Positions 9,078-13,375 of a stretch of 64,000 nucleotides of DNA are shown here, in pieces. A program made the translations under genes and the position numbers. Within the stretch, counting starts at the first letter, position 1. Every line of letters begins with the position of its first letter. A model generated the notes under the pieces. The model was given only the letters and a program-made list of their open reading frames with translations. It did not search any database and was not told the DNA's origin. This stretch comes from Arthrobacter sp. PAMC25564 (GTDB lineage Bacteria > Actinomycetota > Actinomycetes > Actinomycetales > Micrococcaceae), in contig NZ_CP039290.1 in NCBI RefSeq assembly GCF_004798705.1, positions 2,356,001 to 2,420,000 on the forward strand, in the 5' to 3' direction.

Positions 9078-9221
9078 GCTGGCGCTGTGTGTCCCGCCAC
9101 TTCCAATCTATCGCGCACCAGGGGGCTTGCGGCAAGGCCCCGGTCATGCCTCAAACTGGCTCAGACGTGCCCGGACGACGTGCCCGGAAGACTTGCAGGA
9201 AGAGGCTTGGCGAGGCGGGGG
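9078..9221 (+). repeat. RAE-containing leader, copy 1 (direct repeat)
   Basis: These 144 bases match 11172-11314 in the same orientation with only scattered differences and small indels (about nine in ten positions alike by eye). The best-conserved part runs from GTCCCGCCACTTCCAATCTA through the palindrome to CAAACTGGCTCAGACGTG. The copies lie 2.09 kb apart and enclose a VOC pseudogene and an SDR gene. No transposase or terminal inverted repeats are present, so this is a duplicated regulatory block and not an insertion sequence. Confidence 0.85.
9122..9141 (+). promoter_or_regulatory. Rifamycin-associated element (RAE), copy 1
   Basis: The 20 bases GGGGCTTGCGGCAAGGCCCC form an imperfect inverted repeat. 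They match what I recall of the RAE, the cis element found upstream of rifamycin-inactivating genes in actinomycetes and required for their induction. This copy has no rifamycin-resistance gene behind it. The nearest same-strand reading frame is the broken VOC gene starting at 9533. Confidence 0.7.
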
Positions 9222-9532
9222 CACCCGCTGCTAGGTTGTGACAATTTCCGAGCGCGGGATGCTCGTGGGGCGGCGTGGATTTCTTCGAATTACGAACCGC
9301 GGATCGATGGCTTATGGAACCAGAAACGCAAGCGGAGGGCAGGATCACGGTGACTTCGATCGGGCGCAGAGTTATCTTCTCCACCGGTTTCCGCCAAGTA
9401 ACCCTAGGTCTCACATCTTCTTCTTGCTATGCCTCGAGGATCCCGCGCCAGACCGCCTGAGCTGCTATCACGGGTGTGCGTACCCGGCCGGATCCTGGCT
9501 GGCTAGGCTTTATCCATGGACGGGAGCCAGCC

Positions 9533-10185
9533 ATGACCGAACGGACCTACCCGCAGGGCGTCCCATGTTGGATCGATACCGAGCAGCCTGACGTCGAGGC
9601 GGCCGCCGAGTTCTACGCCGGACTCTTCGGCTGGACATTCGAGGACGTCATGCCGCCGGGAGCGCCGGGCCGTTACTTGATAGCAAAGCTCGGCGGCCAG
9701 GATATCGGTGGGATGGCCAGCACCCAGGAGGGCGCCGCGGTGTGGAGTACCTACGTGGCTGTCGAGGACGCGGATGCCGCAGTTGAGCGGCTGGTCGCCG
9801 CCGGCGCCACGGTGCGATCGGCGCCTGCCGATGCCGGAGAAGGCGGGCGCAGCGCGGCGCTGACCGATCCGGAGGGCGCCGAATTCCGCCTCTGGCAGGC
9901 TAAGCGACGCTTAGGGGCACAAGTGGTCAACCAGCCGGGTGCCTGGCCGCCCCACCCGGCTTCGAGGACGCGATTGCCTGGATCGCGACCACGGCCCCCG
10001 ACGAACCGCCGCACTGGCACGTCTCGTTCACCGTTGCCGACCGGGATCAGACGGTGGTTGAGGCCACGCGACTCGGCGCACAAGTCCTTAGCCAAAACGA
10101 GACCGGGTGGGCGCGCACGGCACTGATCCGGGACCCCCGGGGGGCGGAGTTCACTGCCAGCCAGTTCGCGCCCCTGTCGGGATGA
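9533..10185 (+). pseudogene. VOC/glyoxalase family protein, second domain deleted and frameshifted
   Basis: The first VOC domain is intact from ATG 9533 (QGVPCWIDTEQPDVEAAAEF to FRLWQAKRRLGAQVVNQPG). In two-domain relatives this is followed by a second FYxxxFGW-type domain. Here the sequence jumps after VNQPGAW into a different frame, in which DEPPHWHVSFTVADRDQTVV and RDPRGAEFTASQFAPLSG (the end of a second VOC domain) can be read to a TGA at 10183. About the first half of domain two is therefore missing and the remainder is out of frame. In the original frame translation runs on to 10126 with an Arg/Pro-rich tail. The first domain alone might still fold. Confidence 0.75.
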
Positions 10186-10212
10186 GCGGTCCTGTCGGGA
10201 TGAGCGGTCCTG
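10173..10212. repeat. 18 bp tandem duplication at the end of the VOC remnant
   Basis: CCTGTCGGGATGAGCGGT occurs twice in direct succession (10173-10190 and 10191-10208), followed by a further CCTG. It covers the stop codon of the VOC remnant, duplicating its last residues outside the frame. Confidence 0.9.
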
Positions 10213-10262
10213 CAACATGCGGCAGCCCCGGTCTGCTTCCCCGAGAGGAAGCCCCGGCCCAG

Positions 10263-11111
10263 TCAGCCCTGGCGGTTCGTGCCGAGAATGGTGACGTCCA
10301 GGGGCATGCGGTTGGCGCGACGCAAGCGTCCGGCCAGCAGATTGCGCACCCCGTGGGTCACCATGGTCCTCTTGGTCAGATACCGGAACTCGGCGGCGTC
10401 CGACGTTACGAGGTCCAGGAGAGGGCGAGCTGCGTCGTCTGGGGTCTGTCCCCACAGTCCGACAACGATCTGCAGACCGCCCAGTCGATGCTCGTACCCG
10501 GGCTGGGACGTGACGTGCCCCAGCAGGTCGGTCATCACTAGGCCCGGGTTCATGCCATGTACGCGTACGCCGGTGCCTCTGGTCTCCTGCCGCAATGTCT
10601 CGGTGAATTGGCGGACCCATCGCTTGCTCGACGCATATGCGTTCTGCAGTGCCACGGGTCCCCGGTCGCCTTGGCCGTATACGTTGACGAGGTCGCCGCT
10701 GCCTTGGCCTAGGAACACCGGCAATGCGACCCGCGAGCCGTGGAAGGTGCCGAGGATGTTTGTGCGCACCACCTGCGTGAAGTCGTCGACCGGAGTGGAT
10801 GCCGTCGGCCCGAAGACGCCGGAGGTTCCGGCGTTGTTGACCCAGATGTCGAGCGTCCCGTGGCTGAGGGCCTCGTCGCGCAGCGCCTCGACGTCGGCCA
10901 GCTCGCCGGTGTCGCAGCGGCGTCCGGACACTGCGATCCCTTCCGCGAGCAGCCGCTCGACGGCGGCCGCGACGTCGTCGTCGGATCTGGACGCGAGAAC
11001 CACCGTCGCGCCTTGATGTCCCAGCAGCCGGCCCATGGCCAATCCCAGACCGCGTGTCGAGCCAGTCACGACTGCCACGCGCCCGCGGAGGACGTCTCGT
11101 TGCGAACCCAT
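10263..11111 (-). CDS. Short-chain dehydrogenase/reductase (SDR)
   Basis: This 282-residue NAD(P)-dependent oxidoreductase has a Rossmann motif, VTGSTRGLGLAMG, near residue 16, the structural NNAG near residue 93, and the catalytic YASSK with an upstream catalytic-Ser position replaced by Asn-Val-Tyr (VNVYGQG). It ends with a PGLVMTDLL segment typical of classical SDRs. The substrate is unknown. The gene lies on the minus strand between the two RAE leaders, and its start is about 60 bases from the second leader, so its promoter probably points away from the monooxygenase gene. It is complete. Confidence 0.85.
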   Translation of the reverse strand: MGSQRDVLRGRVAVVTGSTRGLGLAMGRLLGHQGATVVLASRSDDDVAAAVERLLAEGIAVSGRRCDTGELADVEALRDEALSHGTLDIWVNNAGTSGVFGPTASTPVDDFTQVVRTNILGTFHGSRVALPVFLGQGSGDLVNVYGQGDRGPVALQNAYASSKRWVRQFTETLRQETRGTGVRVHGMNPGLVMTDLLGHVTSQPGYEHRLGGLQIVVGLWGQTPDDAARPLLDLVTSDAAEFRYLTKRTMVTHGVRNLLAGRLRRANRMPLDVTILGTNRQG

Positions 11112-11171
11112 GCCTCTCTCATACGCGGAGCGGCCGCGGAGAGCAAGAGCCCCGGCGTGACGACAGTGAAG

Positions 11172-11314
11172 GCTGGCGCTGTTTGTCCCGCCACTTCCAA
11201 TCTATCGCGCACAAGGGGGCTTGCGGCAAGGCCCCTGTGATGCCTCAAACTGGCTCAGACGTGCCGGAAGACGTGCCCGGAAGAATGCACGGAAAAGGCT
11301 TGGAGAGGCGGGGG
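11172..11314 (+). repeat. RAE-containing leader, copy 2 (direct repeat)
   Basis: This copy matches 9078-9221 and lies immediately before the rifampin-monooxygenase-like gene, so it is the functional-looking member of the pair. It contains the RAE at 11216-11235 and a purine-rich RBS region (TTGGAGAGGCGGGGG) about 11 bases before ATG 11320. The equivalent RBS-like sequence is kept in copy 1, although no gene follows it there. Confidence 0.85.
11216..11235 (+). promoter_or_regulatory. Rifamycin-associated element (RAE), copy 2, upstream of rox
   Basis: The same 20-base near-palindrome as at 9122 occurs here, 84 bases before the monooxygenase start. In rifamycin-inactivating loci of actinomycetes (rox, arr, rph, rgt) an RAE is the conserved upstream element linked to rifamycin-induced expression. 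Its TTGCGG could serve as part of a -35 region, but I cannot place the promoter with confidence. Confidence 0.8.
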
Positions 11315-11320
11315 CTGTGA
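11240..11320 (+). CDS. Possible 26-residue leader peptide overlapping rox
   Basis: ATG 11240, five bases after the RAE, opens a frame beginning MPQTGSDVPEDVPG. It ends at a TGA (11318-11320) overlapping the rox ATG as TGATG. Such overlap would allow translational coupling or leader control. In leader copy 1 the same ATG starts MPQTGSDVPG but small indels change the frame and it runs to 9241. There is no convincing RBS, and the transcription start may lie downstream of the ATG. Treat this as a hypothesis. Confidence 0.25.
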   Translation: MPQTGSDVPEDVPGRMHGKGLERRGL

Positions 11321-12777
11321 TGGTTGATGTGATCGTTGCCGGCGGCGGCCCGACCGGGATGATGCTGGCCGGCGAGCTGGCGCTGGCGGGGGTGGATGCG
11401 GCGATTGTGGAGCGCCGCACGACGCCGGAACTGGTGGGCTCGCGTGCGGGCGGGTTCCACTCGCGGACGATCGAGATCCTCGATCAGCGAGGCATCGCCG
11501 ACCGGTTCCTCGCCGAGGGCAAGACCGTCCAGGCGGCGTTCTTCGGGACCACGACGCTGGACGTGAGCGACTTTCCTACCCGGCACCCTTACACGCTCGG
11601 CCTGTGGCAGAACCATATTGAGCGGATCCTGGCCGGCTGGATCGAGGAGCTGGGTGTGCCGGTCCACCGCGGGCTCGAGGTGTCCGGCTTCGCCCAGGAC
11701 GGCAGCGGGGTGGACGTGCAGCTCGCCGACGGCGGGACGATGCGCGCGCTGTACCTGGTCGGCGCCGACGGCGGGCGAAGTGCTGTCCGCAAGGCGGCCG
11801 GCATCGGGTTCCCAGGCTGGGATGCGACAAGGAGCAGCCTGATCGCCGAAGTGGAGGTGACCGAAGAGACGCCCGCCGGCGCCCGCATCGACGAGGTGGG
11901 GATCCACGGGCTTCACCTGATGGAGGACGGGCGAACCATGCGGGTAATCGTGACCGAGAAGCAACTCGGACCGGCCACCGAGCCCACCCTGGCTGACCTC
12001 GGCAAGGCGCTGACCGAGGTGTACGGCACCGACTTCGGGGTCCATACGCCGACATGGATCTCGCGGTTCACCGACGCCACGCGGCAGGCCGCGGCCTACC
12101 GCAGCGGCCGCGTGCTGCTGGCCGGGGACGCCGCGCACATCCATGCTCCTTCGGGCGGGCAGGGGATCGGGCTCGGCATCCAGGACGCCGTGAACCTAGG
12201 CTGGAAGGTCTCAGAGGTCGTAAAGGGCATTGCGCCGGACAGCCTGCTGGACACCTATCACGCCGAGCGGCACCCCGCCGGAGCCCGGGCACTGAAGCAC
12301 ACGATGGCGCAGTCGCTCATGCAGCGGGCCGACCCGCGCATCGGCGCGTTGGCCGACACCGTGGCTGGCCTGCTGACGATCGATGAGGCCCGGAAGCGGC
12401 TGGCCGGGCTCATCTCCGGCCTGGACGTCCGCTACGACTTCGGTGATGGGCACCCACTGCTGGGGCGCCGCATGCCCGATCTCGACGTCGTCACCGCCAA
12501 CGGCCCGCTGCGCGTGTTCACCCTCCTGCACGATGCCCGTGCGGTGCTGCTCAACCTCCGCGCGCCGGGCAGCATCGACCCGGGGCCGTGGGCGGACCGG
12601 GTGCAGTTGGTGGATGCCACGTACGACGGCGGCTGGGAGCTTCCGGTGATCGGTTCAGTCAGCGCTCCTGCGGCCGTGTTGATCCGGCCGGACGGGCATG
12701 TGGCGTGGACGGGTGACGGGACCCAGCGGGGGCTGGAGGACGCGCTGGCCCGCTGGTTCGGTCCTGCACGGCGTTAA
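11320..12777 (+). CDS. rox: Rifampin monooxygenase-like FAD-dependent hydroxylase
   Basis: This 485-residue class A flavoprotein monooxygenase starts at ATG 11320 (MVDVIVAGGGPTG). It carries the FAD Rossmann GGGPTGMMLAGELALAG at the N-terminus, the DG motif VGADGGRSAVRKAAG near residue 150, and the GD motif GRVLLAGDAAHIHAPSGGQG near 265. A C-terminal thioredoxin-like domain ends in VLIRPDGHVAW. Order and motifs fit the Rox group, which oxidises and inactivates rifamycins. The RAE immediately upstream supports that role over a polyketide hydroxylase role. The gene seems monocistronic and complete. Substrate specificity is inferred, not shown. Confidence 0.78.
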   Translation: MVDVIVAGGGPTGMMLAGELALAGVDAAIVERRTTPELVGSRAGGFHSRTIEILDQRGIADRFLAEGKTVQAAFFGTTTLDVSDFPTRHPYTLGLWQNHIERILAGWIEELGVPVHRGLEVSGFAQDGSGVDVQLADGGTMRALYLVGADGGRSAVRKAAGIGFPGWDATRSSLIAEVEVTEETPAGARIDEVGIHGLHLMEDGRTMRVIVTEKQLGPATEPTLADLGKALTEVYGTDFGVHTPTWISRFTDATRQAAAYRSGRVLLAGDAAHIHAPSGGQGIGLGIQDAVNLGWKVSEVVKGIAPDSLLDTYHAERHPAGARALKHTMAQSLMQRADPRIGALADTVAGLLTIDEARKRLAGLISGLDVRYDFGDGHPLLGRRMPDLDVVTANGPLRVFTLLHDARAVLLNLRAPGSIDPGPWADRVQLVDATYDGGWELPVIGSVSAPAAVLIRPDGHVAWTGDGTQRGLEDALARWFGPARR

Positions 12778-12910: not shown

Positions 12911-13375
12911 ATGCCCTACATCGTTGACTTCGAGAAGGTTTCCACTGTCGGATTGGAATCGTCTCCGGTCGCCGAGGCCCTCGCCGGGTTGCGCGCCAAC
13001 GAGGCCCGCTATTACCGGAACAAGTACGACCACGTCTTCAAAGTGAGCCCCGCAAGCGAGGTGCCGGAGGTGGTCGACCGGGTGGGCCGGATACTCCGGG
13101 ACGAGCGTGACATCGTCATCGGCTCCCTCCCGCTGGAAGCGACCGCCTTCGAAGTTGACGGTCTGCGGATGGCCTACGTCTTTTACGAGTCGGGGCTGTC
13201 GATCAACGTCATGTACAGCATCGACGACGGCGGGAAGCGCGCGGTCGGGTTCAAACTCGCCGACGGCATGGACATTCCGGAGGAACTGGAATCCCGATTC
13301 AAGTTCGCCCGCCAAAAATCGAAGCTGGCGGGCGTCATCCGAGGCTCCTACTTCGTGATCAAGGGCGAGTACTGA
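12911..13375 (+). CDS. Conserved hypothetical protein (154 aa)
   Basis: ATG 12911 follows a strong RBS (AGGAGG, six bases away). The 154-residue soluble protein starts MPYIVDFEKVSTVGLE, has no signal peptide, membrane segment or cysteine-rich motif, and alternates charged and hydrophobic residues as a compact alpha/beta domain would. I recognise no catalytic motif and assign no function. It stands alone between rox and a convergent SnoaL-like gene. Confidence 0.75.
   Translation: MPYIVDFEKVSTVGLESSPVAEALAGLRANEARYYRNKYDHVFKVSPASEVPEVVDRVGRILRDERDIVIGSLPLEATAFEVDGLRMAYVFYESGLSINVMYSIDDGGKRAVGFKLADGMDIPEELESRFKFARQKSKLAGVIRGSYFVIKGEY

Follow-up and report, generated by a model that had tools for sequence, protein, structure and literature searches.

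Duplicated leaders in Arthrobacter sp. PAMC25564 as putative rifamycin-response promoter modules built around the rifamycin-associated element

Background

The rifamycin-associated element (RAE) is a palindrome in the leaders of the actinobacterial rifamycin-resistance genes helR, rox, rph, arr and rgt, and has been described for Actinobacteria (PMC10719064). Here we analyse a pair of RAE-bearing leaders in a stretch of 64,000 nucleotides from Arthrobacter sp. PAMC25564 (contig NZ_CP039290.1, positions 2,356,001 to 2,420,000; hereafter the window), which have the same palindrome and the same kinds of target gene as the described leaders. The RAE of Mycobacterium smegmatis helD overlaps the -35 element of promoter 2 (P2), a promoter with a mapped transcription start site (PMC10719064), and the window RAEs appear to be placed likewise. 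The mechanism by which the RAE induces rifamycin resistance was called unsolved in 2026 (PMC12802891).

The helD/pps rifampicin alarm of Bacillus subtilis, a dual-promoter system (PMC12802891), resembles the window leaders in that possibly two opposed promoters stand before a rifamycin-resistance gene. Its promoters are, however, convergent and spaced, whereas the promoter-like cores of the RAE module described below are mirror-placed around one 19-bp site, 11 nt from it on either side. Polymerases on the two cores would exclude each other because the cores flank this single site; read as convergent, the cores lack a first-base T in most sites and have no conserved -35. Promoters of MerR-type activators have a 19-bp spacer between -35 and -10, with a dyad between the hexamers. 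The RAE module would share this spacer if TTGCGG is its -35, but its dyad is centred on the -35 and we saw no regulator gene recurring next to the sites. Compared with the RAE as known, the flanks are here shown to be part of the element, one of the two copies is orphaned, and the element is present also in Chloroflexota and, presumably, Xanthomonadaceae genomes. Literature passages on the RAE (PMC12802891, PMC10719064, PMC8655204, PMC10194278, PMC8492726) describe neither a flanking frame nor an RAE outside Actinobacteria.

Two near-identical leaders carry the RAE

The original prediction, made from the sequence of the window, held that two near-identical leaders lie in the same orientation about 2.09 kb apart and that only the second drives a rox-type gene. 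The repeat alignment confirms the former: a direct repeat of 145 and 144 bp occupies 9078-9222 (copy 1) and 11172-11315 (copy 2) of the forward strand, 2094 nt start to start. Its first part (9078-9171 and 11172-11265, 94 nt) is 96% identical, its second (9171-9222 and 11264-11315, 52 nt) 85%. Each leader contains one RAE on the forward strand (9122-9140 and 11216-11234), with the sequence GGGGCTTGCGGCAAGGCCC in both and 0 mismatches to the 19-bp palindrome GGGNCTTGCNGCAAGNCCC. Across the 4.17-Mb genome these are the sole two sites matching the 20-base pattern with 0-1 mismatch, two extra rows of the scan being the same RAEs on the other strand, shifted by one base; three further matches have two mismatches.

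Copy 2 precedes an open reading frame (ORF) for a FAD monooxygenase (11320-12777, forward strand) that starts 85 nt past its RAE. The protein has the aromatic-ring hydroxylase domains of Rox (Pfam FAD_binding_3 and Rng_hyd_C), and its best match among solved chains is rifampin monooxygenase, 5kow (374 bits). Against the NCBIfam model for rifampin monooxygenase (NF033145) it scores 478 bits, under the curated cut-off of 800, whereas the RAE-linked rox of another genome (L118) reaches 891; for this reason we call the window gene rox-like, and it is in this form that the second claim stands. The copy-2 RAE lies upstream of a rifamycin-resistance gene only if the rox-like product is a rifamycin monooxygenase. 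Copy 1 has the purine-rich stretch with no resistance gene after it: among ORFs starting within 450 nt of its RAE none matches a rifamycin gene, and the nearest such gene is that of copy 2, 2.2 kb off.

A conserved frame surrounds the palindrome

For comparison, 395 genomes of the family were scanned, 125 of which had a match at no more than one mismatch, and loci were taken from among the matches listed; further sites came from named genome contigs (at least 119 stretches) and from 55 stretches fetched around listed sites. A set of 203 sites combines the loci at no more than one mismatch with the window, after dropping repeats (L001, L002, L093) and weak own-genome matches or shifted rows (L003-L010). 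Since the search pattern dictates the bases within the RAE, their invariance carries no evidential weight, which leaves the flanks. A matrix of the flanks only, trained on 72 nonredundant rox leaders with the helR, arr, rph and rgt sites unused, scores above 10 at 190 of the 203 sites, a result that is partly circular because the 72 training leaders sit among the 203.

Base frequencies were counted in 165 nonredundant sites (below 80% identity), six of which come from gammaproteobacterial, alphaproteobacterial or Chloroflexota records. With positions numbered outwards from the RAE, the left side has A-17 (100%), T-13 (99%), A-12 (99%) and C-8 (97%), and the right side A+13 (99%), A+15 (96%) and T+17 (99%), with T at +12 in 1%. 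The resulting A...T cores are mirror-placed, at -17/-13 and +13/+17. In 177 sites the core is found at offset 13 in 99% on the right and 97% on the left; at other offsets from 5 to 24 it reaches at most 23% and 54%, respectively. These alignments show a putative module that extends at rigid spacing from about -31 to +17 relative to the RAE, larger than the palindrome, as had been proposed for the regulatory unit. The shared block beyond the RAE, sought as a check before other rifamycin genes, was found there, which disposes of the possibility that it is not conserved.

The right core resembles a -10 hexamer spaced 11 nt from the RAE, which would make it part of the sense promoter P2 and place the RAE over the P2 -35. 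Judged by sequence alone this applies to both window copies, where the -10-like hexamer CAAACT lies 11 nt downstream of the RAE at 9152-9157 and 11246-11251 (forward strand); all but one of 176 actinobacterial-group sites retain the right core, and the spacing in copy 2 matches that of relatives, which have CAGAAT, CATAAT or CATACT at this position. The element CAAACTGGCTCAGACGTG, originally taken for a separate conserved block, did not survive as such. It is the predicted -10 hexamer CAAACT plus the predicted transcript start GGCTCAGACGTG, the latter common only to the nearest rox leaders; that it begins with a -10-like hexamer follows from the exactly mirrored distance of the cores. The rarity of T as first -10 base (1% of the 165 sites) suggests that the promoter is kept weak. 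GC content at +18 to +23 is 0.74, 0.95 and 0.82, against 0.63, 0.67 and 0.57 further on.

Orientation of the left core

In the window the left core reads CAATCTA (9104-9110 in copy 1, 11198-11204 in copy 2), which may serve as an antisense -10 (TAGATT) or a sense -10 (CAATCT). Most likely it belongs to a second, divergent antisense promoter that uses the palindromic -35: its spacing to that -35 mirrors that of the right core, and read antisense it has a first-base T (A-12, 99% of the 165 sites). Intrinsic terminators of antisense polarity occur just left of the core in 37 of the 165 sites (shuffled mean 15.9, maximum 21) and in 17 of 30 nonredundant gammaproteobacterial sites (7.7 shuffled, maximum 11), including 15 of 17 before gammaproteobacterial arr. 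Part of the excess in the 165 is general, since the controls also exceed their shuffles there, both for sense-polarity terminators (13 of 165 against 7.1, maximum 12; gammaproteobacterial sites 1 against 0.7) and for antisense terminators far to the left (19 of 165 against 10.2, maximum 14; gammaproteobacterial sites 2 against 2.5). Folding of -55 to -19 gives z<-2 in 39% of sites against 8% in the far-left control (57% against 3% for gammaproteobacterial sites). A divergent bias of upstream genes is absent (110 opposite, 96 same).

In the gammaproteobacterial arr leaders (L254-L299), a GC hairpin followed by a T-tract, in antisense polarity, lies just left of most modules, and its sequence differs from the actinobacterial one. 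Several actinobacterial leaders (L071, L102, L152 and others) have, at about -50 to -24, a left hairpin GGCAAGGAG/CTCCTTGCC that carries the RAE half-site letters CTTGC/GCAAG in reversed order.

A predicted rifamycin-response promoter module

We favour a reading in which both leaders are complete promoter modules for a rifamycin response, each centred on its RAE, a trans-acting factor works on the RAE, and copy 1 is an intact orphan; to this whole we give a probability of about one half. P2 would be kept weak by the near absence of T as first -10 base in actinobacterial-group sites, by the 19-bp spacer from TTGCGG and by the GC-rich start region. When rifamycin is present, a protein encoded away from the target gene would act on the palindrome and switch P2 on. 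The left core would act as a divergent antisense promoter on the common palindromic -35, with its own terminator in part of the sites. In this genome the leader-bearing segment would have been duplicated, copy 2 keeping the rox-like gene and copy 1 remaining as an orphan with its module intact.

A palindrome of 19 bp exceeds what a sigma factor reads, and so points to a protein on the RAE; loss of its upstream half abolished helD induction, in a deletion that also took out a -35 (PMC10719064). Simple mutual occlusion was rejected as the mechanism, as none of 200000 random parameter sets raised sense output and algebra gives the same result: where promoters merely exclude each other, a larger share of rifampicin-bound polymerase always lowers sense output. 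A factor beyond mutual promoter exclusion is likely, because occlusion cannot induce and because shortening the gap between the B. subtilis promoters by 17 bp, with predicted steric interference, abolished induction (PMC12802891). We saw no linked regulator recurring around 241 sites, in stretches of 2.4-8 kb reaching up to 4 kb on each side; the 12 families found at five or more loci, read without a family search, are resistance genes, their shadow ORFs and single-lineage neighbours.

Besides the circularity of the matrix, the search-imposed invariance of the RAE and the excess in the terminator controls, several observations weigh against this reading. Literature passages on the RAE describe no RAE-binding protein, and an RAE in several phyla would need one that is widely shared. 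T at +12 is less rare outside the actinobacterial group (9 of 46 gammaproteobacterial, 3 of 12 Chloroflexota and 2 of 3 alphaproteobacterial sites). A clade of gammaproteobacterial rox leaders keeps A+13 and A-12 in 3 of 14 rows each, with T+17 in 14 of 14; because A+13 and A-12 are mostly lost there, and the alphaproteobacterial sites are without the right core, the promoter reading does not fit these two groups. The left core (ANNNT) is compatible with a -10 in either direction, the terminators are present in a minority of the 165 sites, and a sense promoter 1 (P1) has been reported upstream of the RAE (PMC10719064).

The mirrored cores, the lack of a recurring linked regulator, the frame in several phyla and the antisense terminators would also suit RNA polymerase itself as the sensor, with back-to-back promoters on one palindromic -35, a rifampicin-bound state that favours the sense direction and no dedicated regulator. 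Such a sensor, related to the B. subtilis helD alarm but with divergent promoters, has a precedent in that a polymerase-based dual-promoter sensor exists in that species (PMC12802891). We consider it unlikely, given that mutual occlusion fails to raise sense output in the simulations and that the B. subtilis promoters are convergent and lose induction when brought closer. That the module is a self-contained switch thrown by polymerase, the same DNA working in Actinomycetota, Chloroflexota and Gammaproteobacteria, is rather unlikely. Quite unlikely, in our view, is a tandem arrangement in which the left core is P1 (CANNNT), its elongating polymerase disturbs P2, and rifampicin silences P1 first. 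Two sense starts are known for M. smegmatis helD, together with a comparable rpoBC case (PMC10719064), and the left hexamer of most gammaproteobacterial rox leaders is a good one in the sense direction (CAATAT or CAACAT); yet there is no conserved -35 upstream of the left core, A-12 is left unexplained, the reported P1 lies about 20 bp before the RAE when a start from the left core would be about 6 bp before it, and a polymerase stalled at that start would still cover the P2 -35.

Since the RAE was reported in the 5' untranslated region downstream of P1 (PMC10719064), it might instead act at the RNA level, as a hairpin of the leader transcript. Positions 4 and 16 of the palindrome form Watson-Crick pairs in 31% of sites against 21% shuffled (0 of 2000 shuffles reach this), and -3/+3, -6/+6 and -7/+7 also pair above the shuffled level; the excess is, however, small, the shuffles ignore relatedness, and positions 4 and 16 are G-G or G-A in 99 of the 165 sites. 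Rfam has no match at the leaders, its one sub-threshold match falling within the neighbouring SDR gene (E 0.66). With 4/16 mostly unpaired and no Rfam match at the leaders, we rejected a hairpin as the main function, and any hairpin role appears improbable. A sense 5' stem-loop is absent in the 165 sites (z<-2 in 7% against 6-8% in controls) and moderate in gammaproteobacterial sites (23% against 3-10%). Both copies read ATG-CCT-CAA-ACT right after the RAE, and the copy-2 frame ends at the rox start; a leader peptide was rejected, as the ATG precedes the P2 -10 in both copies and is lost in L192 and L178.

Genes behind the module

The 190 framed sites are followed by rox (75), helR (74), rgt (11), arr (10) and rph (9), with 11 unlabelled. 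To verify the gene names, one representative of each was scored: HelR reached 1284 bits (cut-off 750), Arr 197 (130), Rph 1048 (999) and Rox 891 (800), while Rgt, at 548, fell below its cut-off of 800. Seven unlabelled sites lie near a stretch edge (L051, L066, L072, L080, L104, L139, L149), and one of these, L104, was seen again as L254 with arr downstream. The other four are L059, L178, L183 and window copy 1.

At L059 (61-1797), from Actinoplanes aureus, a complete RAE module stands before an MFS transporter of DHA2/EmrB-like type, which is a candidate for rifamycin efflux outside the usual RAE targets. L178 (1766-2158) has a module followed by a decayed piece of rox, so that here too a module has outlived its gene. 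L183 has an RAE-like site with one mismatch (2001-2019) and no recognised resistance gene downstream; further downstream lies an ORF that we read as cation-efflux-like.

A wider survey of 266 sites excluded repeats and synteny loci (L214-L252, L305-L313) and comprised 195 sites assigned by default to an actinobacterial bucket (with a few other metagenome-assembled genomes inside), 55 gammaproteobacterial, 13 Chloroflexota and 3 alphaproteobacterial sites. One of the five rifamycin genes follows in 240 of the 266, a count that includes one weak chance match (L068) and two exact repeats. The remaining 26 are seven locus edges, six gammaproteobacterial and eight other sites, which we take for chance matches, together with L315, L059, L178, L183 and window copy 1.

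Distribution beyond Actinobacteria

In the family to which a Stenotrophomonas maltophilia genome belongs, taken here to be Xanthomonadaceae, 60 of 247 genomes have an RAE match with no more than one mismatch (reversed control pattern, 15 by our count). Matches with 0 mismatches occur in 12 of 251 genomes from the phylum of a Chloroflexota metagenome-assembled genome (control 1) and in 2 of 289 from the class of an alphaproteobacterium (control 0). Gammaproteobacterial sites were sampled in part, as 30 loci of the Stenotrophomonas-family scan, 20 regions and loci from other scans. Of 176 actinobacterial-group, 46 gammaproteobacterial and 12 Chloroflexota sites, most have the frame followed by rox, helR, arr, rph or rgt. 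Among unique sites with a rifamycin gene, the left core is present in 172/176 actinobacterial-group, 45/46 gammaproteobacterial, 12/12 Chloroflexota and 2/3 alphaproteobacterial sites, and the right core in 175/176, 34/46, 11/12 and 0/3, respectively.

The definition of the full module and its mirror symmetry, together with its occurrence in Xanthomonadaceae and Chloroflexota, narrow down the sensor. Because the module is found in these two groups, the sensor should not need factors confined to Actinobacteria, by which we mean RbpA (PMC10719064) and class II HelD/HelR.

History of the two copies

The two window copies group as sisters in a 20-leader tree (support 0.942), with branch lengths of 0.152 for copy 1 and 0.029 for copy 2. 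Both have a 12-nt insertion not found in the remaining 18 leaders, of which L171 fills 2 of the 12 columns. Gene order in the window is dinB, leader 1, 257 nt, an internally deleted VOC gene, an SDR gene, leader 2, rox, an ORF and SnoaL, and in the relative G453 (L226) it is leader, rox, ORF, SnoaL, 1.5 kb, VOC and SDR. Leader 1 thus lies 5' of VOC-SDR, on the side where this relative carries leader and rox.

This arrangement makes it plausible that a tandem duplication took place and the first rox was later lost. The original prediction had suggested a lost resistance gene behind the duplication; the sister relationship and the relative's leader-rox upstream of VOC-SDR speak for it, although that linkage is seen in one relative only. 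Against it, the 257 nt after copy 1 (9223-9479, forward strand) contain no convincing rox remnant, with one 23-nt match at chance level. This segment, which runs from leader 1 to the segment upstream of VOC, matches only itself in its own genome and nothing in 121 genomes of the genus.

Copy 1 and copy 2 differ at 3 of 81 bases in the module and at 9 of 65 outside (P=0.03; the two stretches have one base in common), so that the copy-1 module may be either still constrained or recent. The same contrast could mean that copy 1 still functions as a promoter and is maintained for the VOC region after it, rather than being a relic. This seems unlikely: the VOC gene is internally deleted and starts 0.39 kb away, 240 of the 266 surveyed sites precede a rifamycin gene (L068 being a chance match), and no VOC gene was seen at the exceptions L059, L178 and L183. 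As an orphan, copy 1 offers a natural test of the module working alone.

Neighbouring genes

The VOC/glyoxalase-type gene (9533-10185, forward strand) matches Pfam Glyoxalase over 9533-9940. An alignment jump against L226 marks it as internally deleted compared with relatives, and the second half is apparently out of frame. The SDR oxidoreductase (Pfam adh_short) lies between the copies on the reverse strand (10263-11111), its start facing leader 2. An antisense promoter in leader 2 would run into this gene about 80 nt off (10263-11192), and SDR expression may for that reason follow the state of the RAE. Adjoining the rox-like gene is an ORF (12911-13375) without a Pfam or NCBIfam match, which the relative L226 has at the corresponding location with 90% identity.

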